Origin: Dysidea avara | Taxonomy: Eukaryota > Porifera > Demospongiae > Dictyoceratida > Dysideidae | Direction of reading: 5' to 3' | Assembly: GCF_963678975.1 (NCBI RefSeq) | Contig: NC_089272.1 | Location: 62,074,574 to 62,138,573, forward strand | Length of the DNA stretch: 64,000 nucleotides | Shown: positions 19,817 to 54,045 of the stretch, piece by piece | How the letters are laid out: each line of letters opens with the position of its first letter | Position numbering within the stretch: the stretch's first letter is position 1 | Program-made: the position numbers and the translations under genes | The notes under the pieces: generated by a model | What the model saw: the letters and a program-made list of their open reading frames with translations, nothing else | What the model was told of the DNA's origin: nothing | The model's database searches: none

Positions 19817-22800
19817 ATGAACGAAGACAATATCGAATGTGTCGCACTAGAAGAATGCGCTGTGTCCTTCACCAACAAATTGGACCCATCCGCGATATTT
19901 GCACACTTGATAGCACAACATCTCTTAACAGAGGACGATAAACAAGTGTTGATGAGCAATGCGAGAACACCAAGAGAAAAGGCGAACTACATTATGCACG
20001 TATTGCCCAGAAAGGCGGATGGGTGGTTTGATAAACTGTTACAATGTCTCCATGATTCAACGGATGGCACAGGCCATGGGGTCCTTTTGAAAGACTTGGA
20101 GGAAAAGCGTAAAGAATTAAGAGAGAGAAGAAACACAGGTACACCCAAGACTAGGAAGCACAAGATATCAGTTAGGGGAGGTGCTGAAGAAGAACAGAGA
20201 CCATTATTAGCTCGACAAGAAGAGGTATGGCCACATATACGTACAAATGCATTCCACAGAAACACACACAAATCTCATAATCCTAAAGAAAAGCCTCTGG
20301 TAGCTATGTGAAACACAGCTATTGCTACCCAGTGAACCAGCGTTGGTGCACCTCAGGCACTTGAGTCTTGTGCATGTGAATTCTTCTGGGGCAGGGCTAG
20401 TAACACACAGGAGGACTGTCCAGGTCTCATGGAGTGGAATTATTGAACCTGAAGTTCCATATAGCGACTCCAAAACACATACACATACACACACTGTCCC
20501 AAAATATATACCCTAACAATCCTAGCCTGTGTAACCGGTTGTTACTTGTACGAATTTTGAATTCAGATTGGTGAGCAGATCATATATGGGTCTAGAGAGA
20601 TGGATAACTTGCTGGTGTGTAGCAGCTTCTCATATATAAAATAGAAGTAGCTGATATTTACACATTAAATACCATTGATATAGGAAGATCAGGAGATTTA
20701 TTTTGGTGTCCCTAAAATAATATATATCTCATGGAAATATAGTACCTCATGGATCCAATGGAAAATCTTTTGATGGTCTCAAGAAGTGTTTGCCTCCTAT
20801 CACATCGGTAGGATTGTACGTTTCATTAGGCATTGGAATGTTTCTGTGTACCGTATTACTGCGGCTCCTAATACAGCTGTAAGTGCCCTGTCTTGTTCAG
20901 AATTAAATGCCGAGTCCCATAGTACAGTCATAAGATATATAAAGTACTTTGTGGTTTCATAAATGATAAACTTCCTTTTTTAAGTTTGAGTCTGAAATAT
21001 ACTGGGGAGAACATCAAGTACATTATACAACACTGAGGTACAACGTTAATACTTAGTAATACTTAGTAATACGTGAATGTTGTTCTTGTGTCGTTAGTTG
21101 CCAGCCTATGTAGTTTAGTGGCCAAGGTGAAAAGTTACTTAAATTCCTGGGCCATGGTTTGAGGCAATATGGTAGTAGGAGAATTAGCAAATTAGGTGAT
21201 GAACTTGCTTAATCTTTTCATTCAGTATACACAAATAACTTCTTGCCATAATCCTATTGTACTAAAGTCACTACACCTTCCTCCAGCAAACTGCTCCTGT
21301 AGTATCAAGAGTCCATTATTCTTGATAGTATTAAAGGGAAAAAAGGGACCAGTCTTAACCAGGAGTAATGTTGGGTCATGTTTTTCTCTCAAACCAACAG
21401 CTATAGTTGGTTGGCTTAAAGGGGCGGACACTAAAGCAGGTTTCACTAGTCAGTCTACACTTTTCTATTCATTATCCAGTATCCATGGAGAAACCTGATT
21501 GAATTATTAAGTAGCAACTATATACGGAAATGTGTGCAATTGATCATGTTCTGCTCAGACTAATGGTATTTGATGGAATACATACTGTATACTGTCCACC
21601 CACTGGCTGACCTATCGAAAACAATGAGACAGTGAACAAGTACCAGGTACATTCAGGTTTCATGAGCCTTAAATGGCTATTTTCCTCTTGTGCTCAGATA
21701 AGGAAAACGCTATGCTTACAATCTGTATATGTTATTTGTTAGTGTGGTGTATAGCAAATCCTTCACCTTGTTACTGATAAGGCCAACTAAAAGTAGGTCC
21801 CAAACGTAGTACTTCATGACCTCATTAATAAGATCACCTCATTATAGTGACCCATATCAAGTAAGTCCCAAACAGGGAGTGGGGATATGACATGCGTGCA
21901 TGAATACTAATAAACTACCAGGGCGCTGGCAAAAAAATATTTTATACAATTGCACTTCTGGTATGTGTTCATAATCATATATTAGGCATGAATGATTGTA
22001 TATCATCATTAAAATATTGTTGTGACTCTTCGTGGGAAGTCTGTGACTGCCACGTCAACGTCTAGTTTCTCCTTAATGGAACTGTTTATAGTTGCACAAT
22101 TCACATCATTGCTTAATCCCCAGTGATCCCTGCCATCAGAATAATGTACAGGACCTACTCATTGGGCTCACATGAAATGTTTTGTGATGTAGCGAATTCT
22201 TATACTAGTACATGTGACACATGTCGTGCCCTCCCTCAAGTCCCAAACATAGATAAGGTGTACTTCATGACCTCATCAATAAGACAAGATCGTTGTAGTG
22301 ACCATGTCAAGTAGGTCCCAAATATACTTAAAGGTGTCCAAGAGTCAAGAGGTTTGACAGGTATATTTTAGCAACCATACAGTATCTATCTGCTACAGTA
22401 TAAACATGATACTCATGATCTGTGTTATATGTACTGTATACATATAGCACATAAATTGTTTACCACAACTTTGTATTATGTCACTACAGACTTATTCGAT
22501 ATTCTTGGAATCATCTGGTAATCACTCTAACCACACAATACAAGTCAGGTCAAGTGATACAGTTGGATCTCTTATGGATAAAGTCAGAACTAAACTTAGT
22601 AAGTTTAAACGGACTATTATATATTTGTATATTTGTTTAGTGCACATATACTAAATGTTAACTATTTGTGTCTATGAAGGTACTGTGTGAGGTGGTTGCT
22701 AATATTTCATACATGTTTTTTGCCATAATGCATGTATATTGGTATACATGTGATTGTTTGCCTGACATTGATAGGAATGTTCTGAACAGTTTTTGTCACA

Positions 22801-25800: not shown

Positions 25801-26156
25801 ACGCGTATGCAGCCCCATGGGTATGCCTATGGACATACAATTTGTCTTGTTTTGAGTTGTCAGTGTTGAAAATCACAGGTTGAATGATGACATATAACTA
25901 ACCACCTTACAACCTGTCCAGTCATCATAAGTCATAAGCCAATAGACCAAATTTGCATGGTCTTAAAGAGAGTAGTGGAGACTACGCTTAACCATTTCTT
26001 ATTTGTTTTGTTACAGACATATCTCACATGTATGGTATCAGACTGATATCAGGCTCACAAGAACTAAGGTTAACTAATTCACTACGTGATTCAAACATCA
26101 CCAGTAACAGTCGGGTTGTCATGGTAGTGATCACACGTGGTGGAATGGTCAGCTAG
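19817..26156 (+). CDS. Gene 1: CARD - ubiquitin-like fusion protein (218 aa)
   Basis: Exons are 19817-20224, 22490-22598 and 26017-26156, all with GT-AG ends and agreeing phases (0, then 1); they sum to 219 codons. Exon 1 encodes a CARD (about residues 8-97): helices with FTNKLDPSAIF, LLTEDDKQVL, the TPREKANYI turn, and the LPRKADGWFDKLLQCL helix typical of late CARD helices. It is followed by a basic, charged linker. Exons 2-3 encode a ubiquitin-like fold (about 138-215): an IFLESSG first strand, TIQVRSSDTVGSLMDKV aligning to the ubiquitin strand 2/helix 1 region, LISGSQELRL at the 'IFAGKQLED' position, SLRDSNI at 'TLSDYNI', and VVMVVITRGG at the end. Gly-Gly (214-215) is followed by only Met-Val-Ser. 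Translation starts at the ATG aligning with the start of CARD homology in gene 2. A cytosolic signalling adaptor is inferred. I know of no described CARD-Ubl family with this layout. Confidence 0.82.
20225..26016 (+). other. Introns of gene 1 with repeats
   Basis: Intron 1 (20225-22489) contains two related segments (about 21785-21875 and 22230-22325) that share a GTACTTCATGACCTCAT block and a CAAGTAGGTCCCAAA block. Intron 2 (22599-26016) contains a hairpin at 23928-23966 (AGGAGCTTATAAG mirrored), a MITE-like inverted pair at 24376-24433, a GT/TTTG-rich tract at 24450-24510, and the CA microsatellite listed separately. No further exons are needed to complete the domains. Confidence 0.55.
25612..25802. 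repeat. (CA)n microsatellite with AAC interruptions
   Basis: About 190 bases of ACACACA with regular AAACAC interruptions in gene 1 intron 2. The long minus-strand frames made of Val/Cys/Leu are translation artefacts of the repeat. Confidence 0.95.
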
Positions 26157-26844: not shown

Positions 26845-29800
26845 ATGGCTACAGGATCAGATCTAGAGTTGATAGAAGGTACTGGTAACTAAGTGAACCT
26901 ATTAGTTGTCCAGCACACTTGCTCCTTGGTGCTGGGGGTGGCAGGCGCTTGACCTGGACTAAGCCTTTTTCAATCTTCAAGGGGTAGTCACTACCAATAG
27001 TCCTGTAGAACCATCTGCGACCGGGATCAAAATAAAATCAAGCGATCAAGAGTTAAATTTGGAGTGAATCAAGCGATCAAGACGTCCTAGAAAGTGGTGA
27101 TTAAACTAGCTCGAAAACAAAACGAGAATTTACGAAAATATGCGCTAAATTATCAAACAATCAAGGTTATTTTTAAGGAGAAACCAAGCGATCAAGGTAT
27201 ATTTTCGTCGATCAAAACCTTGGTCCCGGTGACCTAGCGACGATATTTCAGTACTTTTCGATTGTGGGTTGGAAACTTTTACCGTTGACTTGGCACGAAT
27301 TTGCTGGCCTTGACCTTTGACTTAGACTTTTACCACGGTCGTAGATCTACCTACAGTGAGTGCCTGTGTGTCACCCCCTTATATCCTGTACTCCGATCTT
27401 CGTCCTCGGTCAAAGCTAAAGTCAAGCTAGAAATTTACAGTCGGTCAAAGGACAAGCACAGTTTGTAAAGTGTATACCATGATCGAAACTTTTAGAATAG
27501 CATCGTGAATGTAAATTTACAAGAAATCAGTCAAGAGTCAAGCACAATTTTGAGTAAAAGTCAAGGATCAAGGCTTATTTTTCAACTTTGACCAAGGATG
27601 AAGATCAGAATACAGTGTATATTGGAGTGCCACCCCCTTGCACTTGGTACTGCCTATTCATCTAGGGATTGTGTGCGCGACATAATCTCTATTGTATGAC
27701 TACCACTTAGCTAATCACAAACCATACGGTGCATGTGCATGTAGTGTTGTAGTAAGGCCACTCCAAATAAAATTATCTGTTTCCTGTCCACCGCCCGCAT
27801 CTGGTTACTGTTAGGGGGGTGGTACTCCAATATATCCTGTACTCCGATCTTCGTCCTCAGTCAAAGTTAAAAGTTGAGCTAGAATTTTGCAGTTGGTCAA
27901 AGAACAAGCATGATTTTGTAAAGTGTATGCCACAATTGATACTTTTGGAATAGCTAAAATATACAGAATTTCGGTCAAGGGTCAAGCACAAATTTTAGTA
28001 AAAGTCAAAGGTCAGTGCTTACTTTTCGAGTTTGACCACTTTGACCGAGGACGAAGATTGGAGTACAGGATATATTGGAGCATAGATATACTAACCCCAG
28101 GTATGGGATTGGAAACTGCTGCATTCCTCACCAATTAACAGCTGCACTCCTAGTCTGATAAGTTTTCAAAATATGTTTTTTGCCAGTATTTAGAAATCGT
28201 GCTCAAGCATTCTGAGGTAGGTTTTAAACAGTTCTTGTAAGTTGCTGAGTTTAAATATACCATCACTTCCCAGTAGTACTCTTTCGCGCGACTTATCAAT
28301 GGAAAAAAGGAATGGCTGTAAAGGTGAGTGGCAAATTTTGTTCACTTATACTGCCTCACTGGATTAGTCTACGAGGTGTTTGTTTCGCTTAAATAGTAGT
28401 TCAAGGCATATAGTTTTGCATGAGGAAGTAGCCAGTGCTCTATCATTACTAGTTCTTGTCTTATTTAAGGAGATGATAATACGCGATTTTAGAAAATCTG
28501 TAATATTACCTTATAAAATACAAGAACAGAGTAGAAGCACACAAACTACTTCCTCATGCAAAACTAGAAACATTGAAATACTGTTTAAATGATACAGACA
28601 CCTCATAGACTAATCCAGTGAGGCGGTACAAGCAGACAAAATTTACCACTCACCTTTACAGCCATTTCTAGTTTTACCATTGAAACTCGCATTGAAAAGT
28701 CACACAAAAGAGTACTACTGGAAAGTGGCGGTCTATTTAAACTCAGCAACTTACAAGAACCATTTAAAACCCGTTGAGTACGATTTCTAAAGACAGGCAA
28801 AGGTGTCAAATTCTTTAAATTCATCGGACACGGAGTGTTTCAACAGAACTATCGAGGCACGTCACTAGTTTCCAGTCCTGTACCTGGGGTTAGTATATCT
28901 ACGATTGGAGTGTAACCCCCTTACACCTTTAAATATTTCATTATTCCATATTCTTCCATTATTTTCTGGTTATTCTTGCATACTGACAGGCTCAGTAAAA
29001 GCTATCTCAGCTCACGTATCAGCAGTGCTATCAAATCGGTACAAAATTCATGTTTGTGTTAGTTTTGCAAAAAGGAAAGAACAAGCTTAAACATGCTTTT
29101 ATGCAGCTTTTTAAGGTTGTACCGGGCAAATAATGGCTTGAAAAGCTGCCAGTGTCATAATGAAATAATGGAAATGGACCGCCCGTCCACATGCAAATAC
29201 GCTCGAGTCCAGGATGGGAAATAGAGAATTTATTTGGAGTGGCCTAACCATGGATCCTAATATTCCTAAATACAAGTTATAGTCATTGAGTTGGCTAAAT
29301 TAAGTGGTGACAATTTGCTATTCCGTAGCAAATCCATAGGTGCAGTTAGGCAATGTTGACAAGTCTAGCATGATCATACTTTTGTTTTGTATGTCTATGG
29401 GTTTCTTTATGTGAGGGGAGTGGTGTAACTACATGAGACTATATACTTACAACCAGTTGCCCAAATATTTGGTAACAAAAGGGAAATATACCTGAGTCCA
29501 GTCCACCAGTCCAGTCCACCAGTCCAGTCCACCAGTCCAGTCCACCAGTCCAGTCCACCAGTCCAGTCCACCAGTCCAGTCCACCAGTCCAGTCCACCAG
29601 TCCAGTCCACCAGTCCAGTCCACTAGTCCACAACCATTAGCTAACAGTGAAAATTCTATCCTTAGACTTTTATATAGTGTAATTGGGATTGTTTACAAAT
29701 TCGCTAAGAATTTTAATTTGATAACTTTGCTCAACCTCGAAAATATTCCCCCTTGACTATATGGTATGATGTAAACATGTGGGTTGACTAAACAGTAGAG

Positions 29801-32800
29801 CTGTGCATTTCTAAGCTAAAACGATAATACTCATTGCAAACTGTGTAACCACTAGTACCTGTCCTATCACACAGGTGCTGTCAACAAAAGAAATAAGTAG
29901 CATTTAAGGCAGTACTATATTCACAGGATCACAGTAGTTATGAAAACAAAGTTTGAGAAAAATCAATTTTACACACAGGAGTACACTTCCTTGCACCCTA
30001 ATCTTGTGCCCAGTTTGTTTTTTTCCCTTTTGTGTTTGGGTGGGGGAAATAAGAGGTCTGGGTATGAGACTATACTGGCACCCAGGTCAATTACTTTTAT
30101 AGCACCCAATTGGCCTGTCCATGCTGACAGTCCATATGCTGTGAAGCAATACCAGGATGCTATGAACTTACCATGCGCAAAAAAGGTAAGTTAGAAATAT
30201 TATGCCACTGGCAGGATTCAAACCCACACCCTACACTAACCGCAGCCACTTCAGGGAAGTGCTTTACCAGCTGAACTATTTTTTTGTGGTTTGCAATGGA
30301 ATGTGCATGGAGTTTTTCATTATCATGGCCTTCAATGTGCTGAAGTGGATGACGGAAAGCATGTAGAAGTGGCCGATACTGTATTGGGTAGCCAGATGAT
30401 GAGCATTTCATTTCGTACATGAATCGTGGTAATATGTGCACAGATAGGCGAGTAGGTGCTGTCAGTATCTGGTACATGAAAAAGTCACAAAAGGTAGTAC
30501 TGTATTAGGAACCCGCTGATTAATCTTTTTATTTTACATGCTATGCTGCACTGCTCAAAACCTTTACCTATTATACTCAAATTATGCTCAATATTTATTG
30601 CATTTTATGGGTAAATAATAAGTGGCTGGCACAGACTATAAATCCTTAACCCATTATTATCGAATGGCTAATATATTGCCATAACGAGTGCCCTATATAA
30701 ACGGAGCCATTACTCCTTTTTCCTAGGCGCTACGAAGCTAAAATTGCTACCAAACTGCTCAGAAGGACCGGGCGCTTCTAATGAAGTTTACCGTTCGGCG
30801 ATAGGAAGAAGCATGGGCAAGTTATGGCACTTGGCAATATAAAATAGCGTATAAAAAACAATACTACCTGTTTAAAACTCCATGTTCGCCTTCTCCCTGC
30901 TACTAGGAGGCTTTAGTTAGAATTACTCCATTCCCCACGTGATAAGGATTCTAAAAATAAATAGTGTGATGTCATCACGTTGATTAGTAAGATGGCGGCG
31001 CCCATCTTTCAATGCCATGGCGATACGGAGAAGATATGCTTCTTCGCTTCATAGCGCGTGAGTTGTGTGTGTGATCTGTAAGTATTCTAGCTGTGTTGGT
31101 AGAAGTGAGAGATGGCTATCAAACGGTATATAGCTTGATGGGTTAATTAATGGGTGGGGTCCACTCGTATCGTACACAGTTCACACAAGCCATAAAAGAT
31201 TTCACACTTGCGGTTTTGTAAAAAAAACTTCGGTAATAAAGGGTTAATAGAACAGTGAGTAACTCTAATAGAACAATCAGGTAGCTGACTGTTCTATTGG
31301 AGTATGTCAATCTTTTCTGTGACATGCAATTTGACAAACAAGTATTTAGAGTATATCGATCTTTTTCTGTGATATGTATTTTGAGAAGCAAGAATTTATG
31401 GTAATGCACAAGTGTTCTGCCTATTATGCTCAATGTTTTCATCTATTATGCTCATAACTATGCCAGTATAATCAGCGGGTCCCTAACTGTAAAGGTGGTA
31501 ATGTGGTATTTTTACAAAAAAATATTATTCAACGGAATTTTCTACTGCCTGCCTGCTTAGTGTAGCAGAAAAGTGGCTACAGCTATAGCACTACTTCTTC
31601 TTACTTCAACCTTTCTCATGTTGATAGCCATACAATACTCACACTATGTCTTATTTTTATCCTTTCCATAGCAGCTATCAGTCAACCACAGTACGGCTTC
31701 CTTTTCTGGGAGTACGTGTTCTTACACAATGTTATTGCACCAACATATTGGAATATATGTGCTCTCGGAGTACAGCTTGTGAGTTATTCTCAGTTTTAGA
31801 TAAGAAACCTGCCACCAGTAAAATTAATGGACTGCTTGTAGAATAATATGCACAAAGCGTATGAATGAAGTAGACTACTGTCAACTACACCGAGGTAAGT
31901 GAATTAATATGACATAGCTGCCAAACCGTGGTCTCACTTTGTGTCAGTAGTAGGTGCAGTTGGAATATAATATCAAGTTCACACGAGCATGCAAACTTGG
32001 TACCACTCAGTATGGTAGAAACAAGAAGTGTGAATAATTATCAATCAAACTGTACCGAACTAACCTAGCCATGCCATTTTTGGAATAAAGAAGAGATACT
32101 TAAACTTATTAGTATATGGAGTGATGCCAATATACAAGAACAGGTAACTGGATACCAAAGAAATCGTGATGTATATATTATGGCAGGATAGGCAGAAATC
32201 AGTTACACCAGGTCTTTGGAGATAAATTGAAGGTGAATAAAGGAAAAGAGAAAGGAAACAGGCCAAGTCAGGTACCCAGATTGGGAATGTTTTGATGCCA
32301 TTGATGCTGTAATTGGTTACAAACCAGCTACTCAGTCTCCAGTGGTTGTGGACTCATCACTGGAAGACCCAACTGGATGGGCAGATAACACTGTTCTGGA
32401 TAGCTTGACCAGTCAGCTAGCAATAGCTTGATGCAATCTGCTGGTGATGATTGAAATGAAGCACCATTGCTGAGTAACACTACTAGCTCTGTAACTCCAT
32501 CTGCTGGTGGTGAAACATCTGAGACCCCTGCAAAGCAGTAGTAGTACAGCCCAACCAAAGAAAGAAGCTGCTATAAATACTAAGAAATTGAACTATGATG
32601 TAACGGGTGATCTACTTGATAAGGCTTGTGTCTATGCAAGTATGCAAGAGAAGTCTGATAAAATTATGATAGAACTGGAAAACAAAAGAACTAGATTTGA
32701 AGAGCGACAGATGGAAATTGAAGCATAAATGAGGAGAGATGAGCAAGACTTTCAGTTGCAAATGATGAATGTAGAGCCTATGTAAACCCGCATCACAGCT

Positions 32801-35800
32801 CGTTTCAATTGCCATTTCCCCAACACTCAGTGTATGTGTATGAATTGTTCTATTGGGTGCTACAGCTACTATACATATACTCTGTGATGTGCCCAGGTTT
32901 AGAATAGTGGTGGTTAGAAGGGATAGGGTTGGGTCAAGAAATGTAGTATGGAGCCTTAAGTTTGTATGTCAGAGGTGAATTAGTAGTGGTTGTGGTGGCT
33001 ATTTTATTTGAGTGGTGGTCGGTACCGACCACTGCCGACCACTGTGGGTACATCCCTGACTCTAGTTTAAAATTCCTAATTTTTACTTATGCTTGTGTAT
33101 GTATGTATGTACGTACGTATGTATGTATTTATGTATGTATGTACATACGTATGTATGTATGTATTTATGTATGTATGTACATACATATGTACGTATATAT
33201 AGAGCTGGGCGATATCACAATTTCTTACCAATAATATATTACCATCTGAAACATCACGATATTACTAAATATCATGATATCCATACTTGAGTGCTATAGC
33301 AAAAATATTATTCCAAGAAATACATAACCAACACTTTTCTTGGATATAATTTGATTAGCACTTCCATCAAAGATTTGCATAAATATGTGTAAATATGCAG
33401 AATTACACTAAATACAGAGAATTACTGAAATATGATATGACGATATTGCAATTTGAAGACAGTATCAGATGTAAATATCCCAATATACGATAATATCATG
33501 ATATTGCCCAGCATTACGTATACACATAGTTAGATTTGTTGGTATGTACTTTTGTATGTATGTATGTGTGTGTGTATGTATGTATGTATTTATGTATATT
33601 GTTGTAGCTAATAAACCGCCAACCACAAGGCAACTTCTGTCCTTTGTGATACCTAAAGTTGCTACCAGATGGTATGAGTTGGGAGTTATGTTGCTAAGAC
33701 CAGAGCAGGAACCAAGATTGCAGCAGATCAAATCAGACCATGGTGATAATGTAAGAAAGAGTTGTTTAGAGATGTTCACATACTGGAGACGGTCTCACCC
33801 TGACGATAACTGGAATCATTTAGTAGCAGCGCTCAAGTCTCCTGGTTTAGAGATGGATGCAGTTGCTGCAGATTTACAAAAAATGTTCACTGGTAAATTA
33901 TTAATTTTGTGGTCACTGTTTTATAGCATGTGTTGCACGTGTAGGGACAATGTTAATATGTGCTTGTGTTTCTTGGCTTTTATAAGGATATAAATGTTCT
34001 TTTCGGATTTGTAGCAATTACAATTGGTAAGGATCAAACATCTTTACAAACCAACGTGGAGGAAGCAAAGAGTGAAGATAAGAGAAATATAACCTGTCCA
34101 GCCTACTACAGTGTACTGTTTTCTAGTCTTGTTGAAACTGTTCTCAACATTTTAAGTAAATTGGACAATAAAGAAGAAACCCTAGAAAGAGCCAAATCAT
34201 TGTGTATCTGTTTAACAATTGGTAGTGAAAGTAAAACATTGTTGTTTGATGATGAAAAATTGAAGAAAATTACTGACTGTGCAAATTTCAGAGAATTGTT
34301 TGTTATTCTTCGTGCACACTGGAATTGGGATGAGTGCTCAATACTGGAAGGAATTGTTGAAAAGTGTGAGTCAGAAAAAGCACAACAAGAGCTTCACAAA
34401 TACCGGCAAAAGGTGGTAATCACTAAAGGTCTTGAAGTTATTTTTAACCAAGTTAAAGTTTCTCCACCGACAGGATATAAAAGGTTTTATGTAATTTATA
34501 AAACCAGTTCAACCAGGCTAACAACTGATCAGTATCTTGACTGCAAAAAGTTTATATTTGACACTCTTGAAGTCCACCAGTATGTAGCCCTCCCATACAG
34601 TTGGGTGCTATTTGGTTCATTACATCTTGAGTGGCATGTTACTGCTCAGGCAGTCCCTTACATGATGGTTATGGCATACAAGAAGAAACAGGTTTTCATT
34701 GACAACTCTTACGTATTTATGCAACTTGGAGTAGTTCCAATATATGATATGAGGGATACTCATGAAGAAGTGAGTACAACTATGTAAATGTGTATATGCA
34801 CATTGATTGCATGATATACAGTGTATCAACATTGTTCATACAATGAGTTATTTTTATGTAGCTATAGGATTATTGCATGGATCAGCTGATGTCTTAGCAA
34901 CTGACCGTAATTTTACAATGTCGGAAATCAAAATACACACCATGATAACAATAGCTTGCCCATACTGTACATGTATTATACAGACCATAGTTTTCTATTT
35001 TAACAGTATATATATAGCAGCTATAATTTTGTGTATGACCAGTAGTGCTGGGTGGTATTGAAAAATAACAAATGGTATACCTTCCATAAAAAGTATCACG
35101 GTATTACTAAATATCACGGTATTAATGGTAAAGCCATTGGTATTAAAGTAACTGCCATTTACCTCAACAAAAGCACCAAATACCCATGGTAGTTCAGCAA
35201 ACCTCAGGTACAAATTACCACAAACAAACTTGTTTACATAGTTTGGTTAGCTGACTACATCACCACCTGCCTACAAATGGGTAGTTGGAAAAGGCAGATA
35301 CAGTCGGACGCGGACACATGCAGACACGGACATTTTCAAAAAGCATTTTTACATTTATATAACAGTTATTTTTCATATCTAACGCTGTTTGTACAGCAGC
35401 ATTCGCTTCCAGACCCAGGAGTCGATCTTGTCATAGCGCGTATCCATATATATACCACTTTAGCGTGGGCGTTCAAAGGCGCCGCTCGGTGTTTAACTCG
35501 CATATTGCCCGGGAAATATCAGGATATTGCCCGGGCAATATCATGGGAAAGCGGTTTGCCAATGACTTTGATACCCAGCCAGTTCAAAGAATCGATGCGC
35601 TTTGACTCGTTATATTGAGCGACATAGAGCTTTGTATTGTGGGACTCAGTTTTGTAGAGGTTGCTAAGCTTAGTACATAGGCTAAGATAGAGTAGTTGGT
35701 TGTTACTAAAGGATAATGAAGGCACAAAATAATTGTTTGGGCGATTGTGGATGCGTACTTCTACCCAACGCGTATCAGCCTTTGAACAGACCATGGAACA

Positions 35801-38800
35801 GCAAAGCTACTACTGCTACGTTGAAATAGGTTAGTAACTTACAGTTCTAAGTACTTAACTTAATATAATAACTTACTTACTGTCCCAATAGCGAAGTTAG
35901 TTGGCTTAACTTAGTACAAAAATGATAACAATATAAACTCCATCCCACAATCGCAAGTTTTCTAACATTGCGTGTTGAAGCATAGTAACGTATTAATAAC
36001 GTTTTAACGTATGGACAACGTTTTGATGGCTATTAGCCCATGCTATTAAAACCACAATCGATCTTCAGATGCTACTGTATAAAACAAATGGGATGAGTTC
36101 TTATTAGTTCTTTCACCTATTAGGTGAGTGCGCCCCAAGTGATATATATCACTTGTACCATGGCTGCTTGGGATTTTGCTGACATATACACCCGCAGCCC
36201 TCGGGCCTGCGGCCCTCGTGCTTTGGGTGTATATATTAGCAAAATCCCTCGCAGCCATGGTATAACTATTACATAAGCGCATGTGTGAACGATACACTAG
36301 CGCTCTAAAGACCATATTACAGTGTTGTATACGTGCTCTAGAAATCTAATTCAGAGCATATAGTTGTACACCAATAATACTGTAGTGATTTTCTTTTTTG
36401 ATGATTCCTGTAGTAAAGAAAAAAATAAAATAAAAAGGAAGCCTCAAAGCTGGCAGCTTTGGGGTTTGTAATTACAAAAAGTATACCAAAACAGAGAAAA
36501 GGGTATCATGTGATCATTGAAAATAATTGGCATCATGCATCTTTGCAGCCATTTCTTGGCTGCCACCTCTAATTTCAACACCTTTTTCTTTCTAGTGGAG
36601 GGCTGCACCCTTTTTTCACAGCTTGGCTATTTTGGTACAGATACGTATATATAGGGTGTATGCCATGATTTTTCTGGTCACTTCTTGTTGAGTAGTATCA
36701 CTATAACAATCTACCAGGACTGTGATTTTGGTAATCTAGATTACTAAAATCAGATACCTACTTTTTTGTGATAGAGCCTTCAGCACTGTAGGTGTGTCCA
36801 TATACGTATTATCACTATTAGTTTTTGTAGATATACTGTAGCAATTAATAAAGGAAGTTTTTAGTAGTCATTTAACTCCATCAAGGTAAAGCATGAATGC
36901 AATCTCAGACCATTCATGTTTATAGCTACATTGCCTACCTACATTGTGTGGGTAGGGATTTCACAACTGGCAACTACCTAATGTTCCCTATTCATTGCTT
37001 GTATTATATTTCACTCAGGAGAAATCTCCATCCATTACTAGTGGCAGTCACCACACAGTATCAACTCCATTGGATGATGAGTCTTGTAATATTGAACATG
37101 ATGTTCTAAAAGAATGTGCTGTATCATTCACCAACAAGTTGGATGCATCTGCAATATTTCCACACTTAACAGCACATCATCTCCTATCAGAAGACGATAA
37201 ACTAGTGTTAATCAGCACTTTAAGAACACCAAGAGAAAAGGCAAAACATATTATGAGTATATTACCCCAAAAGACAGATGGGTGGTTTGATAAACTGTTG
37301 CTATGTCTCCGTGAATCAGTGGATGGAACAAATCATGGAGACCTTTGGAGAGAATTAGAACAAAAACAGAAAGAATTAAGGCAAACTAAAAGCACAGGTA
37401 CACCCAAAAATATAGATATATCAATCAAAGAGGAATCTGAAGAATCACATCGACCAGCTGGAGATGAAGAGAATAAGGTATGTAATACAGTATTCAACTG
37501 GAGGGTGTACAGCAGCAGTATGTATAGATCACAAAATCTTTGCTGCCCAAAAATATCACCAAAGCTTAATTGGCACTATTGGTTAGATTCAATCTTACAG
37601 ACCTTTAGCACTTGTGCTGTATGTACACTCTTAATAAATAGAAATAATGTGTATTTGGTTCCACAAGACGTTCTTTGAGATAATAAGTCGCTGTCTAAGG
37701 TTCCTATGGATACAAATACATGACATTAACAAAGAGAAAACATCCTGGCTAGATCCCTGTAAGCGTCCAAGTAAAAATCAGATGGCTGCAGGTTCAAGGT
37801 CCAGTCAAGGATTTTCCACCTTTTCAAATATTATACTTAATCAAGTAGTGAGTTGTGCGACCAAGGAACTATGAAGTGCACAACCAAAAGTTAAAAATGT
37901 GTGGCCACTACTGTGAGTTACTTATGTGTAGGGACAGTTTCACAATATTAGTTCTGGATTATGTAACTTCTCTTAGTAGATTTATATTCGTTATGTAATA
38001 AAAAAAATCTTTAGTTGTTGTCAAGTGTACTTATACATATTTTGCTTTATTTCTCTACCTTGTGTTACACCTACCGTCATGTTACACCAGTCAACATACC
38101 CATGTTGTACAGTCCATCTAGCACTAACACTATCTAATTCTGGTTTGCTCCTACACGATTTTCTTCAATTAAACCTCTAACCCAGACAATAACTTTTAAA
38201 GACATGATGTGAACACAAATCCTAAAATCTTACAAACAAGTTGTGAAAGAATCAAGAGCGTAAGTTCCCTAGGAAAGGTGTTTGAAGCATAAATCTTGTA
38301 GACTCTATTTATTACCATGCGCCGCTTGGTGTATTACAATTGTTTTAACCTTTGTGACTTGTCACTACTGTGGAACTTCTGGTAGTCTTCTGAACAGCCT
38401 TGTTACATATACCCACCCCATGGACAAACAGTCACTCACATCATGGCTTTCATCATGCATGTTAATTACTATATACACACCTATATAACACAATGAACAT
38501 CACATTAATTGTTTACTTCTGACGATACAACAGAATAGTGATGTATTCTAGAAATTCAGGTTAGTGCATATGGAAATTCATGACACCCCTGATGACGCTA
38601 TACTCTATGTACACTGATAATTGAGAACTACAAAAGAACACATATAGACAATTGTAATAATACAGTTCCTCAACTGACCTGAAATTCACGACATCCTTTG
38701 ATCTGAGTTCCTGTATGGCCTTAAGTTACACATGACCACATCCAACTGCTAGTGGGTAAACTACTATGACCACATGGCCTGCAAAAATCAATAAGCGGGC

Positions 38801-41763
38801 ATTAATTACAGTATGCCTAAAATCTGGTTACTACTATACGCACGACATGTATACTTACCAGGGTATTAGTTTGGTCCCATAATAACAGTATATACCTAAT
38901 CCTGGAAATTCAGAAAACATCTGATATAATAAACAATTATATTCCTTAGTATGTAGACTAACCTGGAAATTCATGACACCCTTGATGTCACTACAGTCCA
39001 AGTACACTTAACAATTGAGAATGTATATATAGCTGTATGCTATGACAGAATAGTAACTAAATAAACTAGTATATTATTTAATTAAAAATGAAGTAGGGAT
39101 CCAAGTGATAAAGTAGTGAAACAAGAGATGAATGAAGGTATTATAGCACAGCATAGAATATCTCTACTTTAGCATTGAGCAAAAATAACTTTTTCCTATT
39201 TCCTCGTATAAAAAAAGCTACATTCAATTAAACACCTGTCTCGATCATAAGCCAGGGGTTTCCAGCACCTTTGGAAAATAAATGACTTGAGAGGCCCGGG
39301 TTATTACTTGAGTCTACTGTTAATGGCTTTAATTAGAGGTGCATTGATATTCGGATTGGCTATCGGCTATATTGGCCGTGTTTTTGCATATCGGTATCGG
39401 ATTGGTAACATGCATAAAAAAGTAGCAGATACAGATATACAGTACATAAACATCTATTTATAGGGCCATGACTCATGCTCTAGTAATACCCTAGTAGCGC
39501 ATGTTTATATAGTGTTGGCTGCTAATTACAGTCCCACTCTGTCACTTATTTACTAAATTTAGAGAGCAAATTGTTAGAGAAAATGTCCATGCTACCATAT
39601 TGAATTGGCTTTGTTTATCGGCTTGATAATATTATTTGTATTGGTTATCGGAATATCAGCTAAAAGCCATATCGGTGTACCTCTAGCTTTAATTGTTTCC
39701 CTTGTTGCTGCTGTTTCTTCATACTTGAGTTTAGAGCCTTCAGAGGGATGAAGGTACTACGAGTAATCACTTGAGTAGTCTGGGCGAGTCCATAGATATG
39801 TATGATACAACTATTTTCCAATCATTTTAAGCCACTTGTTTATATAGTCAACAGACTGTATCACTGTTCAGTATGCTTACCATTACAACAATCCCGTCCT
39901 ACCACCACCTGTAAATGCCAGGTGTTGGTCAGAATAAATGCCCGGTCTCAAATAAAGGCCCTGTTCATTTACAGGCTGGGTCAAAAATGCTGGGGCTTAT
40001 ATATAACATGCATGGATTTTCTATGCTGAAATACTATCTTTCACCTCTTGCTTCACTACTTCTTATTGCTTAAATTACTTAATTAATAATTGGTAAATGT
40101 ATTATGCACTAAAATCTATATACTGTATGTACGGTATGTGCAATTATCCTGTATTGTGTCACTACAGCCCTTCTCCATATTTGTGACATCAGCCATCTCT
40201 CATAAGCATATTGTATTGCAAGTCAGACCAAGTGACACAGTTGGACGTCTCATGGACTTAGTGAGAAAGAAATTTAGTAAGTTTATCTTGCATATTTATT
40301 AAGTACAGGGTATTCACTAAATGATTCCAGTTACAGTGTATGATGTACATATGTGCTTACTGTAAGTGCAATAAGATTCTAGATGCAGTATCATGGCGTA
40401 TACGTACATAAGCTCTGAACATTACTGAAATGCTCAAGTGTAACATCACACTTGTACTATAGAAATCAAGGGCATATCCAGGATTTTTTCAAAGGAGTTT
40501 CCAAAAATTCAGCAATCGACCACTGCAAAATTCCTCTTAGTTGTAATACGTTTCCTCTAGGGACCCACCGGTTATGCTTTTTTATTTTACCTATTATGCT
40601 ATGCTGGACTGCTTAAACCTTTAACCTATTATGTTCAAATTATGCTCAATTTGTATGCTTCAGTTATATAAATTTGCACTTTATGAGTGAATAAGTGGCT
40701 GAAGCACAGACTATAAACCATTGCTTGTCAAAATACATGTCACAGAAAAGATCGACATACTCTAATAGAACAGTCAACTACCTGTCTGTTCTGTTAGAGT
40801 TACTGACTGTTCTATTAGTGTATGTCAATCTTTTTCTGTGTATTTTTGGAAGAAGGTATTGCACAAATATTCTACCTATTATGCTAGCATTATGCTCAAT
40901 ACTTTCAGACACCTATTATGCTTATAATTATTCCAGCGTAATCGGCAGGTCCCCAGCTCCCTCCACTGCTGGTATCAAGACACGTCCAAAATAGTGTGGA
41001 CACAATGGTTATGAAGAAAGGTGGTAAGTTGTCTTACATCAGGAGCCTTTATTGTCCAAGTTTCTGTATACCATAAAGTAAAACAGACAACACAACGGTC
41101 TTATACACATTTCTTTTGGTATGCAAGGAAAAAGTCCTATTCATAAAAAGTAGCATCATACAAGCTACCAAATGCCTTCAAGGCTTTTGCAATTCTACAT
41201 GCCACCTCTCTAGTGACCTTTCCATCATTACATAGACATGGTCCAAGATAAGACTCAGTCACCTTCTCAATTTCACCTCCCTCCTCACTCAGTGGAGCAA
41301 CATCATCATCGCCAATACCACCCCCATAGCCACCCACACACGTGCACACACACAACACACACACACACATCCAGACATATACATGTTTTTCAGAAAAACA
41401 ATCAGGGGTGTGCCCACAGCCAACCTTCAGCCGGTCTTCAGCTGGCTGTGGGTGCATGCCTGGTTTGAAAAATACACACGTTTATGCCAAGGCTAGTAGA
41501 TTGTGGGAACATGTCTTCGAAAGAGGTGTTGGGAATGTATTTTCAGTATGTGATGTTTATAATATAAAGTATCTACATTCTGCATATATGTAGGCTGTTG
41601 TTATCTCAATTTTGTATTTTGATCCATAGTTATGCCCGATGTCTTTAGTCTGATATCAGGGTCACAAGAACTACGTTTGAATAATTCACTACGTGACTCA
41701 AACATCAAAAGCAACAGTCGTGTTATGATAGTGATAAGAATACCTGGTGGAGTGTTCAGCTAA
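26845..41763 (+). CDS. Gene 2: Death domain - domain X - CARD - ubiquitin-like protein (591 aa)
   Basis: Exons are 26845-26878, 33608-33892, 34015-34769, 37019-37477, 40168-40276 and 41630-41763, all GT-AG; phases agree at every junction and total 592 codons. Exon 2 is a Death domain (about 15-104): WYELGVML, RLQQIKSDHG, then Trp71 and Trp80 in the W..S.P...NW pattern, and LVAAL. Exon 3 (107-358) is a helical domain I cannot name, with HWNWDECSIL near 208 and a more beta-rich second half. Exon 4 is a CARD (about 386-470) clearly paralogous to gene 1 (FTNKLDASAIFPHL, DGWFDKLLLCL). Exons 5-6 are a Ubl closely matching gene 1, ending P-G-G-V-F-S; Gly587-Gly588 precede a three-residue tail. Exon 1 is only 34 bases and was picked because its phase and start context fit; it is the least certain part. 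The introns carry many transposons. Confidence 0.75.
27369..27642. repeat. Palindromic MITE related to the one at 27.82-28.09 kb
   Basis: Begins TATATCCTGTACTCCGATCT near 27380 and closes with the decayed complement GATGAAGATCAGAATACAGT near 27598, with GTCAAAG/CTTTGAC-type units between. Non-coding; lies just outside the larger Harbinger-like element. Confidence 0.65.
27756..29244. mobile_element. Harbinger-like MITE with nested foldback elements (gene 2 intron 1)
   Basis: The ends begin GGCCACTCCAAATAAA and are inverted over about 35 bases (27756-27791 and 29210-29244). They are flanked by TAA on both sides (27753-27755 and 29245-29247), a TWA duplication as in PIF/Harbinger elements. Inside lie another palindromic unit (about 27818-28090, ends ATATATCCTGTACTCC / GGAGTACAGGATATAT) and the large foldback listed separately. 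No transposase gene. Confidence 0.75.
28085..28905. repeat. Very long foldback repeat (arms about 350 bases)
   Basis: The left arm (about 28085-28435) and right arm (about 28545-28905) are reverse complements throughout. For instance CTAACCCCAGGTATGGGATT is mirrored by the GTACCTGGGGTTAG end, and TTTTGCATGAGGAAGTAG at 28413 by CTACTTCCTCATGCAAAA at 28546. Short frames inside are palindrome-derived. Confidence 0.8.
29495..29628. repeat. 13-bp minisatellite
   Basis: About ten near-perfect tandem copies of AGTCCAGTCCACC. The minus-strand Trp/Thr/Gly/Leu/Asp repeat frames are artefacts of this array. Lies in gene 2 intron 1. Confidence 0.95.
30190..30295 (-). repeat. tRNA-derived SINE-like segment
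   Basis: On the minus strand it has a box-A-like TAGTTCAGCTGGTAAAGC and a box-B-like GGTTTGAATCC about 55 bases apart, the spacing of a tRNA internal promoter. No cloverleaf is well preserved, so this is a tRNA-derived repeat rather than a tRNA gene. Confidence 0.6.
30509..31483. mobile_element. MITE (AGGGACCCGCTGATTA-type ends) with internal insertion
   Basis: The left end TAGGAACCCGCTGATTA near 30508 is mirrored by TAATCAGCGGGTCCCTA ending near 31485. Inside both ends are CCTATTATGCTCAA-type repeats, and near 31250-31320 a hairpin of the CTCTAATAGAACA motif. The same family occurs at 40,560-40,953. The GC-richer middle (30.7-31.1 kb, with AAGATGGCGGCGCCC) looks like inserted foreign sequence. 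Confidence 0.6.
32065..32790 (+). pseudogene. PIF/Harbinger Myb/SANT-like protein, degraded
   Basis: Three segments with stops between them read as the accessory DNA-binding protein of Harbinger elements. A SANT/trihelix-like start (EEILKLISIWSD, QRNRDVY) comes first, then YPDWECFDAIDAVIGY near 32275-32320. The C-terminal helix follows at about 32610-32770: EKSDKIMIELENKRTRFEE, then RRDEQDFQLQMM. In-frame stops occur near 32175, 32225, 32430 and 32727. It lies in gene 2 intron 1 and is no longer functional. The family call rests on remembered pattern only. Confidence 0.65.
33090..33200. repeat. (GTAT)n microsatellite
   Basis: Runs of TATG/GTAT with TACGTACG and TACATACG interruptions; a further tract of the same unit lies at 33540-33600, directly against the Death-domain exon. 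Confidence 0.9.
33203..33518. mobile_element. MITE with GCTGGGCGATATCA ends
   Basis: The left end GCTGGGCGATATCA at about 33203 is mirrored by TGATATTGCCCAGC ending near 33513; the interior repeats ATATCATGATAT-type units. A related end (GTGCTGGGTGGTAT) occurs near 35045 in intron 3. Confidence 0.7.
34770..37018 (+). other. Intron 3 of gene 2 with repeats
   Basis: Contains a MITE fragment from 35045 (CTGGGTGGTAT, then TATCACGGTATTA repeats), a short palindrome near 35510-35545 (ATATTGCCCGGGCAATAT core), and a strong palindrome at 36155-36262. An isolated ATG with ideal context (ACCATGG at 35789) followed by a GTTAGT donor near 35830 is present, but it does not fit the phase of the next exon. 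Confidence 0.5.
36155..36262. repeat. Imperfect palindrome around a GC-rich centre
   Basis: TACCATGGCTGC at 36156 is mirrored by GCAGCCATGGTA ending at 36262, and ATATACACCC by GGGTGTATAT. The middle reads GCAGCCCTCGGGCCTGCGGC. Likely a MITE or its solo hairpin. Confidence 0.7.
37597..37840 (+). repeat. SINE-like repeat with box-B-like motif
   Basis: Plus-strand copy of the family at 15.25-15.53 kb. It has TTTAGCACTTGTGCTGT at the start and GGTTCAAGGTCC (resembling a pol III box B) near 37790. It lies just after the CARD exon in gene 2 intron 4; frames that run into it from the CARD exon are read-through. Confidence 0.65.
39334..39685. mobile_element. hAT-type MITE with perfect 8-bp target-site duplication
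   Basis: The ends TAGAGGTGCATTGATAT and the mirrored ATCGGTGTACCTCTA delimit 352 bases rich in TATCGG/CCGATA units. The octamer GCTTTAAT flanks both sides (39326-39333 and 39686-39693). It sits in gene 2 intron 4. Confidence 0.9.
40560..40953. mobile_element. MITE (GGGACCCACCGGTTATGC ends)
   Basis: The left end GGGACCCACCGGTTATGC and the right end GCGTAATCGGCAGGTCCCC are inverted, followed inward by CCTATTATGCT repeats. The middle holds a hairpin built from GATCGACATACTCTAATAG and its complement (40747-40835). Lies in gene 2 intron 5. Confidence 0.75.
41030..41235 (-). pseudogene. LINE reverse transcriptase remnant
   Basis: The minus strand gives YLGPCLCNDGKVTREVACRI, then a KALKAFGSL helix, followed in another frame by an ETWTIKAPDV-like block near 41040-41070. 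This is the conserved thumb/linker of many LINE reverse transcriptases. Short and frameshifted. Confidence 0.65.
41400..41467. repeat. MITE-like hairpin related to 24.38-24.43 kb
   Basis: GGTGTGCCCACAGCCAAC is mirrored by the GCTGGCTGTGGGTGCATGCC segment, and a CCTGGTTT end follows. The gene 1 intron 2 hairpin has the same GTGCGCCCACAGC / GTGCGCACCTGGTTT plan. An ACACAC tract precedes it. Confidence 0.6.
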
Positions 41764-46974: not shown

Positions 46975-49445
46975 ATGTCATTGCTGTACATTATAGACAA
47001 AGCCTGTTTAATATCAACATGTCCACACAGGTGATTGTCTAAACAGTCCAGAAGCTTATCAAACCAACCATATGTAACACATGTATAAGGTAATTAATCT
47101 TCTTGGACTTAATATTCATGAGTAATTAAATCTTTATCATCAACTGTTAATGGTTCCGTGGCATCCAGGTGGGTTTAAAAGGCATCAACATCTAATTTCT
47201 CTCTCAACAGGAGATAATTTTTTTTTACTACTAGAGCTCTTCTTTTGCATGTTTTTACCTAGTCCTTCTCTTGTCATCTTACAAAAGCCTCATGATTTTT
47301 TTGTAATGAGTGATACGTTGATCTACAGTATGTAGATGTTGAGCTGAGCCCTCAAAAACATTTAATTAGGCCACATAACCTCATTATATTCTCATCCTCC
47401 AATACTCAAAACAGTAGTGTGGGAGGGTGGTGTTTTATTTTTTTTTTTATTAACTGGTAGCTGAATTATCTAGCTAAAAGTGAATTATATGACTCAGAAT
47501 GTAATTTTGATTAGACTGCTTTAGCTAGTTGTTAGGTGCTGGATGGCTTCACTCAGCCACCAATGGTGCAAACAAAATCCTTGACATGATAAGAAAAATG
47601 ATGGTGCGGGTGAAGATGAGAAACTAATAAGTAAGTTTATGTGGCCTAACTCAAAGATGGAGTGAAGTTTGGTTTATTTATAATACCGCTTGACCAAAAG
47701 TAGTTCAAAATCATTTCATTCAAATGTCTGACACTTCATGATCATTTACAAGTTTTCGCCATACATTTCCTATGAAGAAGCTATAAAGTGCATGTATAGT
47801 CTGTTATGTCTTTTGTCAAATTTGCTGTGTGGCCAAACCGTACATGTCTGCTTTTTACACTTTTATGGTCATCAGTAATCATCTAGTTTGCTGAAATGCT
47901 AGCTCTTTCTCTTAATAAAACATTTCGCTTTTCTGTTTTATATAGCTGTTTTCTCAGGACTCAGCTCAACGTGTACGTACTATAGTTCAGAGACATAATT
48001 ATGGATAGATAGCGGCCTATTCTGCTCCCCAAAATACTAAAATTCAAACTATTGTGCTTATAGCCATAATTATAACCTCAATATATTTTTGCTTTTACCT
48101 TTATAACATTATTTGGCAGTTTTACTGTAGTTTGTGAGCATCTCTTTAAAAGTATCGTCATGATCCTATGCCTATATTATGTTACCATCATGTTTACTAT
48201 TTCAGGCACCCATTATGAGCATAATATTGATACATGTAGGTGCTTACCCACAAGTTTCACCTGCACTTCTGAAACCACATTAGATGACAAGTGGAAGACC
48301 ATTCTTGCCATTTTCTGAAAATGCATGGTTTGGCTGAGTCAACAAAATCATCACTGTGACCATGTGTGTCATCATCTAGTGACAGTGACCTGTCTAACTC
48401 ATGATGTAGTGATGACCTCTTGTGGTTATCAACAGATGGCCATGGGCATGTAGGATTAGAGGTTATGCCATTACATAATTGTGCTGAGTCCTCTTTTAAA
48501 AAATCTGAGGCATTACTATGTATTCCAGAGTCAACAGAAGTTGTAAGAAGGTTGTAGTCTACTTTAAATGCTTGGTATTTGCCGTAGATAAACCTACAGT
48601 ATACATACAGTAATTAAGTACCAAGTATATACTCACGCATTATAAAATTCTTACCTATGCAATTAAATGCTCACTCATTTCTGAGGTATTAGTGCATCCA
48701 CAACAATCCCATACGAGGGTATATATACTAAAGAATTGTTATGTCCATAAGTGGTGGAAAGGGGAGGGCTAATACATAATGGATTCTTGACACTTGCTTA
48801 CTTGTGAAGATGCTGGTTGACTTCTGAAGCTGAGGAGTTGGGACAGTACATCCACAACAGTCCCAAGCAAACAACCTCTACATACACCAAGCAGCCAATA
48901 CGGCCACAAATCCTCATGATCAGTTCACACTTATTCCAGGTGTGTAGACATTTTTCAGTATAGACATAGAAACAGCTTGGTCTTTAGTGCTGAAACAGTG
49001 AAACCAATAATGTGCAGTCCTTGAAATTCACAGCCATGACCAACTCCAGTGTCAACTATGAACACTACCCAAATGGTTTGCTTGTAGATAAAGGGCATGC
49101 ATGGTGACCATTTATCAAGTATTTCTCCATTATCTTCATACTTGTTGGCAAACTTATAGCTATTTGTGGGCATATTTTAGCTCTTCAAATTCGAGAATGG
49201 AGTAGTTGGGAATTGAGAAGCAATGCTTTATCCACATGTTTTGATCTGCTTTACTGTCGGCATAGAAGGATAACACTTTTCCTTCACATAGTGACACTGT
49301 CCTTTGAGTCTACTTTAACATAGTCCACTTTTGCAAATGAAATTTGTAACAACCTGGCTACAGACTCAACATCTTTAAACAGATGCAATTTTTTTGCTGG
49401 CTCATTTTCCACACCGCCACATGTGGCCTTTGCCTGTAACCCAAA
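46975..49445 (-). pseudogene. Pseudogene A: decayed PH-PTB-CARD adaptor (gene 3 relative)
   Basis: Minus-strand homology to gene 3 in the same exon order. The PH exon (about 49445-49140) keeps the HLFKDVESV and SFAKVDYVK-like stretches. The PTB exon (about 49095-48795) keeps WVVFIVDTGVGH and GLHII. The linker exon lies at about 48600-48260 and CARD remnants at about 47235-46975. Breaks: a roughly 10-base deletion near the PH exon start (around 49430), loss of the GTAAGT donor after the KYEDNG codons (the sequence runs straight into GAGAAATACTTG), a one-base insertion at the PTB exon start, a deletion in the PTB, and a badly truncated CARD. Homology to gene 3 intron 1 continues to about 49870. 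No exon 1 was found. It would not make a working adaptor. Confidence 0.8.
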
Positions 49446-49869
49446 TAATGTGTAAATGCAATCTGGCTTGATAAAACAGTTACATAATGCATTATGAAAA
49501 ACATATTAATAGTAGCCATATTAATGCTTTAAGGCATGAATTGTAATTCTCATGCATGCTTGACACCAAAATGAACTAAGAATTTGTAGCTGAAATATTT
49601 TTAACATGTATGGCAGCTCATTGTTTGGGACCACAGTGCACACTGTATGTTTAATTATGTTATTTACCATGCAGCATCAGAGTGGAACCAAACTTAATGT
49701 CAGGATCTTCCACTCTGAAAGAATAAGGGTTGACTATGGCTATGGCTTTGTATGGGTAAAGTTAGTGCTCATGACTTTGGATTTTGAAATCAGTCAGTTG
49801 AATTGTCCCTGACTTAGTATATCATTACATGCAATTGCCATGTGCTTCAGTACAACTTTACAAGGTTAG

Positions 49870-53623: not shown

Positions 53624-53661
<38 letters not shown>

Positions 53662-54045
53662 CTGCCTGCCTGCCTAAATTTTTATTATTGCATGTTTGCA
53701 GTTTAGTGGAATTTACCTAATCAAATGAAAGCACACACTTCAACAAAAAACTGAGGGTCCTAAGGATATAGCTACTACCGTTACGTTGCTAATACACAAT
53801 GATAATTATTTTAATGTGCATCAGGAAACTTGTAACAACTTTTATCTCACAAAATGTATCAAATTATCAGTAAAGTGTAGCTGTTGAATTCATCAGAACT
53901 TACTAAATCAAAAATGACAGAAATCATACCTTTATTTATAATATTTATAAATATTTTGACATACTGAAGCTACTCCTTGACACCATTCTTAACATACACC
54001 CATCCATTAAACACTGGTCATCCTGCCATACTCTGTCATTTGGAA
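52130..54045 (-). pseudogene. Pseudogene B: decayed PH-PTB-CARD adaptor (closest to pseudogene A)
   Basis: Minus-strand pieces in gene 3 order: an exon 1 remnant (about 54045-53990) with an in-frame TGA four codons in, part of the PTB exon (about 53575-53315), the linker exon (about 53240-52790, containing a TNSGYFYPN block like LDSGYFQPN of gene 3), and a short CARD tail (about 52230-52130). The PH exon is missing and its place is taken by a GT/GCGT microsatellite (53578-53660). Its linker and 3' flank resemble pseudogene A more than gene 3, including noncoding stretches at 52,010-52,530 versus 46,860-47,000 and 47,930-48,240, so A and B arose by segmental duplication. Confidence 0.78.
53578..53680. 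repeat. (GT)n / GCGT / CCTG microsatellite
   Basis: GTGTGTGT with GCGTGCGTGC and CCTGCCTGCC tracts, abutting a TTTAGTGGAATTT fragment of the 43-kb repeat. It interrupts pseudogene B. Confidence 0.95.

Follow-up and report, generated by a model that had tools for sequence, protein, structure and literature searches.

Gene 2, as we call it here, lies in a stretch of 64,000 nucleotides of the sponge Dysidea avara (assembly GCF_963678975.1, contig NC_089272.1, positions 62,074,574 to 62,138,573, forward strand; the whole stretch is referred to as the window, and positions are counted from its first letter). Its predicted product carries a Death domain, a segment that we call domain X, a CARD and a ubiquitin-like domain (Ubl), in that order. 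We lean towards reading gene 2 as one gene, in which a phase-0 intron links a Death-X cassette with a CARD-Ubl gene and whose product would be a scaffold with the plan Death-like domain, TRADD-N domain and variable C-terminus. Adaptors of animal immunity and cell death form a known class whose domains are much shuffled, and gene 2 looks like a new combination within this class rather than a wholly new kind of protein.

Exon structure and domains of gene 2

An earlier note on this DNA had proposed six exons with agreeing phases and a sum of 592 codons, which place two death-fold domains and a Ubl in one polypeptide. Rebuilding the model from the sequence bore this out: every border has a GT donor or an AG acceptor, the intron phases are 1, 1, 0, 0 and 1, and the 592 codons include the TAA stop, which leaves 591 residues. 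The parts of the gene, all on the plus strand, are the following.

26845..26878, +, putative exon 1; MATGSDLELIE and the first base of the next codon, with a phase 1 donor; the least supported exon
33608..33892, +, exon 2, Death domain (PF00531, E 3.4e-5)
34015..34769, +, exon 3, domain X; 251 whole codons, phase 1 in and phase 0 out
34098..34451, +, first half of X; conserved segment in the alignments without an assigned family, helical by eye
34473..34748, +, second half of X, probably TRADD-N-like (NCOA6 clade) by hhalign, with the predicted tiny-Ser turn at Ser 201 of X
34770..37018, +, intron 3, phase 0 on both sides; presumed fusion junction between Death-X and CARD-Ubl
37019..37477, +, exon 4, CARD (PF00619, E 1.8e-5); phase 0 at both ends, no in-frame ATG ahead of the CARD
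40168..40276, +, exon 5, first half of the Ubl, from the exon model and Ubl searches
41630..41763, +, exon 6, second half of the Ubl; ends in IRIPGGVFS, then TAA

Both death-fold domains and the joined Ubl scored above their Pfam cut-offs: 24.3 bits against 22.6 for the Death exon, 25.1 against 23.9 for the CARD exon, and 33.3 against 25.4 for the two Ubl exons taken together (PF00240, E 4.2e-8, residues 4-73 of 80). The first Ubl exon alone reached E 0.075 with the Pfam ubiquitin model, and the gain on joining the exons is good evidence for the splice between exons 5 and 6. Intron 1 also appears to contain an imperfect inverted repeat, seen by eye at window positions 28200-28850.

Domain X is a multi-copy exon with a probably TRADD-N-like half

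Searches of the species' own genome covered 550.8 Mb in 108 contigs, with the window on the contig named C1 here. Domain X gave 66 matches, itself included (65 others), mostly on contigs C4 and C6. Thirty X loci were fetched, the window's own among them, most of them seen with only 1.5 kb of flanking sequence. The frame is open through the domain in 29 of these 30, and locus L034 has one TAA. After the X match, the first candidate donor (GT[AG]NG) stands 0-45 bases further on and in phase 0 at all 30 loci, which suggests that X is generally an internal exon; the reading of X as a terminal exon was rejected for this reason. The alignment of 29 members, from which L034 was left out, contains 10 invariant columns.

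The earlier note had regarded X as an unknown domain and recommended a domain prediction of exon 3. Pfam and PDB searches, both with X alone and with the 29 members, returned no convincing match, but the second half of X aligns with the TRADD-N domain of NCOA6. The label of unknown domain was dropped, since X is a module repeated in its own genome and its second half is, by the comparison given next, probably TRADD-N-like. For the first half of X, a comparison with Death and CARD profiles gave no convincing match; the Death-CARD control failed too, which makes this result uninformative.

When X was compared by hhalign with the TRADD-N domain of human NCOA6, the score was 23.7 over 43 columns, with a program probability of only 20. 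This score was reached by none of 400 shuffles, whose maximum was 18.2, and ten other sequences, including reversed NCOA6 and human TRADD, gave at most 14.2. Across runs the match spanned 43-45 columns with probabilities from 8 to 20. The X-NCOA6 register of the profile comparison pairs FGSLHLEWHV with WNSVRVTFNI. Strands 2 and 3 of TRADD-N domains are linked by a turn with a conserved tiny-Ser (uS) motif (Kaur et al. 2021, PMC8195603). All 29 X members have Ser at the corresponding position, in agreement with the hhalign register, by which this Ser would sit in the beta2-beta3 turn. The residue before it is S in 20 members, N in 4, G in 2, and A, R and H in one each, and is thus tiny (S, G or A) in 23 of 29. 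From this evidence the second half of X is probably TRADD-N-like.

Several results speak against this likeness. The NCOA6 match extends over only about 44 columns of X, and the Pfam TRADD models, PF09034 included, have no match in the 29 X members. A genome search with PF20694 found nothing convincing, its one match (E 2.35) lying elsewhere, and one with PF13820 found no match, although this model matched in no control genome either. Human TRADD could not be aligned with X. A TRADD orthologue was considered as an identity for gene 2 and rejected, because the Death domain comes first in gene 2, no classical TRADD-N sequence is recognisable and PF09034 matches none of the 29 X members.

Apparent exchange of modules around X in its relatives

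The modules next to X differ among its copies. By tblastn, a Death exon lies upstream of X in five of the 29 relatives, namely the closest X paralog, on contig C6 (via L060), L023, L029, L033 and L035, where the locus end cuts it; the Death match of L028 is weaker (E 0.04). The Death exon of the C6 paralog is 54% identical to that of gene 2, and the acceptor is phase 1 in all five Death exons inspected (window, C6, L023, L029 and L033). In two of 10 loci examined, L011 and L014, a CARD stands ahead of X (PF00619, E 4.7e-6 and 4.1e-5, the latter exactly at the cut-off).

Downstream of X, the C6 paralog has three BIR repeats at a distance of 6.6 kb, and their frame begins with an acceptor of phase 0. 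In L015, a RING, a B-box and a filamin domain, which make up the body of a TRIM-like ligase, start 100 bases after the X match. L019 has a PUB domain (PF09409, E 2.6e-19), a p97-binding type of domain, together with ankyrin repeats, and L034, the locus with the stop in X, has ankyrin downstream as well. Open reading frames of L025 and L038 that had been taken by eye for ankyrins gave no ankyrin match in Pfam, and that of L023 stayed below the cut-off. One genome shows the Death/TRADD-N-like cassette beside differing candidate outputs, several of them linked to apoptosis or ubiquitin: BIR, TRIM-like, PUB and CARD-Ubl.

The intron between Death and X is shared by gene 2 and the C6 paralog, and its donor reads CTG/GTAAATTA in both. 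This shared intron suggests duplication at the DNA level rather than a processed or reverse-transcribed copy, the latter being the route proposed for the DEDD2 clade (PMC8195603). As for the Death domain family itself, 150 of 653 first-look candidates in the genome were scored and all lay above the Pfam cut-off, which points to a very large expansion.

The CARD-Ubl part has a neighbouring paralog and a local cluster

The window contains a second gene with the CARD-Ubl arrangement, gene 1, which has a CARD and a Ubl only.

19817..20224, +, CARD exon of gene 1, with its own in-frame ATG (PF16739, E 1.3e-6; PF00619, E 4.5e-6); no Death-X cassette found
22490..22598, +, first Ubl exon of gene 1, from paralog comparison and Ubl search
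26017..26156, +, second Ubl exon of gene 1; ends in ITRGGMVS, then TAG

The Ubl of gene 1, with its exons joined, matches PF00240 with E 5.7e-8. The paralogy of the two genes from the CARD onward, which the earlier note had claimed, was confirmed by 58% identity between gene 1 and the CARD-Ubl part of gene 2 over 214 codons; for the CARD taken separately the identity is 62% over query positions 20-147. Between these CARD-Ubl parts, nonsynonymous divergence (dN) is 0.28 and synonymous divergence (dS) 0.77. Against the C6 paralog, dN is 0.33 for the Death domain and 0.48 for X, with dS at about 2 and saturated. Judged from these values, gene 2 shows signs of purifying selection.

The CARD of gene 2 has 66 matches in the genome, itself included, of which 29 lie in C1:62.07-62.6 Mb, on both strands, in or next to the window. 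Twenty CARD loci, among them that of gene 2, were fetched with flanks of 1.5 kb. Six of them include a first Ubl exon, and they correspond to four genes outside the window: L041, L042, L043 and a gene upstream of the CARD of L044, each deduced from a CARD and a first Ubl exon (L044's own CARD is a partial match to that of gene 2). Elsewhere on C1, X has just two matches, both of them weaker, interrupted by stops and some 61 Mb distant, from which it follows that the Death-X and CARD-Ubl parts would have come from different families.

One gene, two genes or a decaying fusion

The earlier note had read gene 2 as one gene with an adaptor role, which is still the best reading, with the amendment that X is not an unknown domain. 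It is favoured by the phase-0 candidate donor after X in 30 of 30 loci, and by the CARD exon of gene 2, where, in contrast to gene 1, the open frame offers no ATG before the CARD begins. A replacement first exon was sought between X and the CARD and no convincing one was found there: the only ATG exons with phase-0 GT[AG]NG donors read MFIATLPTYI or MFIATLPTYIVW, and their donors, GTGTGG and GTAGGG, are poor. These same findings bear on the reading of the locus as two adjacent genes, which we judge fairly unlikely. It would consist of a Death-X gene with one or more unseen last exons in 34.8-37.0 kb or elsewhere, and of a CARD-Ubl gene with an unseen first exon. It draws on the occurrence of CARD-Ubl without Death-X in gene 1 and the four inferred genes, and on the different families of the two parts that the weak and distant X matches of C1 indicate. 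In addition, three of the 19 other CARD loci (L042, L047 and L056) have no in-frame Met ahead of the CARD, so that separate 5' exons occur in the cluster. Apart from the donors after X and the poor donors of the ATG exons, what opposes two genes is that open frames of other domain types follow X in its relatives, and that the next coding exon after X in gene 2 is itself in phase 0.

That the fusion is decaying or without function, its exons being no more than remnants, appears very improbable to us. Gene 2 is known from genomic sequence only, its introns are long, and one X relative among the inspected loci (L034) has a stop, all of which such decay would accommodate; yet every exon of gene 2 is open, all of its splice sites are GT/AG, and in the CARD-Ubl part dN is much smaller than dS.

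Other observations weigh against gene 2 as a single gene built from a Death-X cassette and a CARD-Ubl gene, a structure predicted from genomic sequence alone. Exon 1 has 11 codons and lies 6.7 kb upstream of exon 2, and its ATG, donor and phase are all that favour it; by tblastn it matched only itself among the fetched loci, and no first exon like it was found in the 2 kb upstream of the Death exon of the closest paralog. Three of the introns are long (6.7, 2.2 and 2.7 kb). The assignment of X and the downstream modules of its relatives to the same genes is a candidate one. Furthermore, the C1 cluster contains a Death domain (L055:580-840, minus strand; G000:C1:62277348-62277524) that is 33% identical to that of gene 2 and lies near a CARD on the same strand, with which it possibly forms a CARD-Death gene; the Death part of gene 2 might therefore be of local origin and have reached the gene separately from X. 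Closer to the Death exon of gene 2 (54% against 33%) is that of the C6 paralog, which does stand ahead of an X exon. The exon structure, the domains, the signs of purifying selection and the changing modules around X are seen in the sequence, whereas the fusion event, all binding partners and the output of gene 2 are inferred.

Proposed origin and mode of action

On the one-gene reading, a member of the local CARD cluster on C1, with the CARD-Ubl arrangement, would have acquired a Death-X cassette by way of a phase-0 intron, the cassette coming from a large family that is dispersed in the genome. In the product, the Death domain might dock on, or co-assemble with, a Death-domain partner, while the TRADD-N-like half of X would offer a sheet face and its Ser turn to a partner of the MATH/TRAF type, by analogy with TRADD and TRAF2 (PMC8195603). 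The CARD would nucleate or join CARD assemblies, in which the products of the neighbouring CARD and CARD-Ubl genes might take part, and the Ubl, through the ubiquitin-like surface that it displays, would bring in proteins that bind ubiquitin or belong to the ubiquitin system. Acting in this way, gene 2 could be the hub that the earlier note had proposed.

Gly-Gly ends of the Ubl domains

The Ubls of both genes end in Gly-Gly followed by three residues, IRIPGG-VFS in gene 2 and ITRGG-MVS in gene 1. Such an end, with its short tail, in two neighbouring genes is the one surprising feature here and would permit a modifier role. The four outside CARD-Ubl genes, as read, have no Gly-Gly; they end in HKL, HKL, SMVL and VLTDT, and their Ubls stop about where the RLRGG tail of ubiquitin would begin. 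In this reading, the second Ubl exon was supported by a tblastn match at L043 only; at L041, L042 and L044 it was chosen by eye among several candidate frames. Two of the outside Ubls were joined by hand, with a guessed and probably wrong junction residue and, in one sequence, without the first residue; one gave a weak match below the cut-off and the other none.

Compared with the ubiquitin repeats of the same genome, the Ubl of gene 2 is 35-36% identical over about positions 4-78. Its best match outside C1 is L064 (G000:C9:16108993-16109217), a divergent ubiquitin-like frame (35%, E 1.3e-5) that ends in VRVPGGL; a related frame and then the ubiquitin repeats come next among the matches. Gene 2 keeps Ile at Ile44, Val at Val70 and Arg at Arg72 of ubiquitin, and has Gln and Ser at the positions of Lys48 and Lys63 and Pro at that of Arg74; gene 1 has Ile at the Arg72 position. 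Ile44, Val70, Arg72, Lys48 and Lys63 are positions with roles in ubiquitin.

The Ubl could be a processed modifier: a hydrolase would trim the last three residues, the Gly-Gly would be activated, and the whole adaptor, or a cleaved Ubl, would be conjugated to targets at the signalling complex. The shared Gly-Gly ends, the identity to ubiquitin and the Arg kept by gene 2 at the Arg72 position fit this idea. We nevertheless consider it improbable. The four other CARD-Ubl genes, as read, do without Gly-Gly, so the tail is dispensable in the family; Arg72 of ubiquitin is replaced by Ile in gene 1 and Arg74 by Pro in gene 2; and a near-C-terminal Gly-Gly may persist by descent without being used. 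A further idea, to which we give little credence, is that the death-fold scaffold is itself a conjugatable modifier, whose Gly-Gly, once the last three residues are removed, would be attached to targets and so plant seeds of CARD or Death assembly on them covalently, with the two neighbouring genes, CARD-Ubl and Death-X-CARD-Ubl, as its two forms. The ends raise the question of whether a death-fold adaptor can be attached to targets covalently, as ubiquitin is.

Comparison with known systems

The class to which gene 2 appears to belong has been described in the sponge Amphimedon, where TRADD-N proteins of the NCOA6 clade have expanded to 357 and share a common plan: up to three Death-like domains, at least one, stand ahead of TRADD-N, and the C-terminus varies (Kaur et al. 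2021, eLife, PMC8195603). Gene 2 and the X family resemble it in the N-terminal Death domain, followed by a probably TRADD-N-like segment, in the Ser of the predicted turn and in a multi-copy expansion with varying C-termini, ankyrin among them (as read from the candidate same-gene frames). They differ in that the C-terminus of gene 2 is CARD-Ubl, a pair unnamed among the C-termini listed in the text of that study, and in the further conserved segment between the Death domain and the TRADD-N-like part. The earlier note had called the architecture previously undescribed; this does not extend to the class, which is known, but does apply to the exact CARD-Ubl C-terminus in the literature covered. 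Within the open-access literature, as represented by titles, abstract openings and passages and with supplementary tables excluded, no Death-X-CARD-Ubl or CARD-Ubl protein was found. On these sources the variant is new and the class is not.

In proteins of the sister DEDD2 clade, TRADD-N, often accompanied by a Death-like domain, is fused to a module of the ubiquitin system, either polyubiquitin or TRIM, and sponges are not among the expansions that the text of that study lists for this clade (PMC8195603). Gene 2 differs from them in its TRADD-N clade and in having one divergent Ubl behind a CARD where they have polyubiquitin.

Relative to vertebrate TRADD, the domain order of gene 2 is reversed, and a classical TRADD-N is unrecognisable in it. 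Vertebrate TRADD is not known to have a CARD or Ubl. FAF1 and similar adaptors join a Ubl to binding regions of death pathways; they are not known to have a Death domain or CARD of their own, and their architecture is unrelated. What gene 2 shares with TRADD is a Death domain and, probably, a TRADD-N-like segment; TRADD uses its Death and TRADD-N domains as an adaptor (PMC8195603).

Two further sponge families offer partial parallels. The Amphimedon sacsin-like proteins fused to DEATH domains also join Death to a family whose vertebrate members carry a Ubl; they are defined by Hsp90-like, DnaJ and HEPN domains, and no CARD is mentioned in the passages on them (PMC3710099). The NLRs of Dysidea avara itself use CARD and DEATH as N-terminal signalling modules, and UBQ is listed in the legend of their architecture figure, whereas they are defined by NACHT and LRR (PMC12909245). 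An assignment of gene 2 to the NLRs was rejected, as Pfam gave no NACHT or LRR match in exons 2-5; there was none in the X exon family either.

Other features of the window

Towards the end of the window lie three further features, two of them just under the Pfam cut-off.

55677-56111 (within 55677-58030), -, CARD (E 1.2e-9)
62060-62470 (within 62060-63283), +, PH-like exon (PF00169, E 8.2e-5, just under the cut-off)
62930-63283, +, IRS-type PTB-like exon (PF02174, E 2.8e-4, just under the cut-off)

Exons on the minus strand at 48801-49505, 53411-53716 and within 55677-58030 resemble the PH and PTB exons and were not recognised by Pfam. The PH, PTB and CARD exons of the window perhaps represent DOK/IRS-like docking genes, possibly joined to CARDs.

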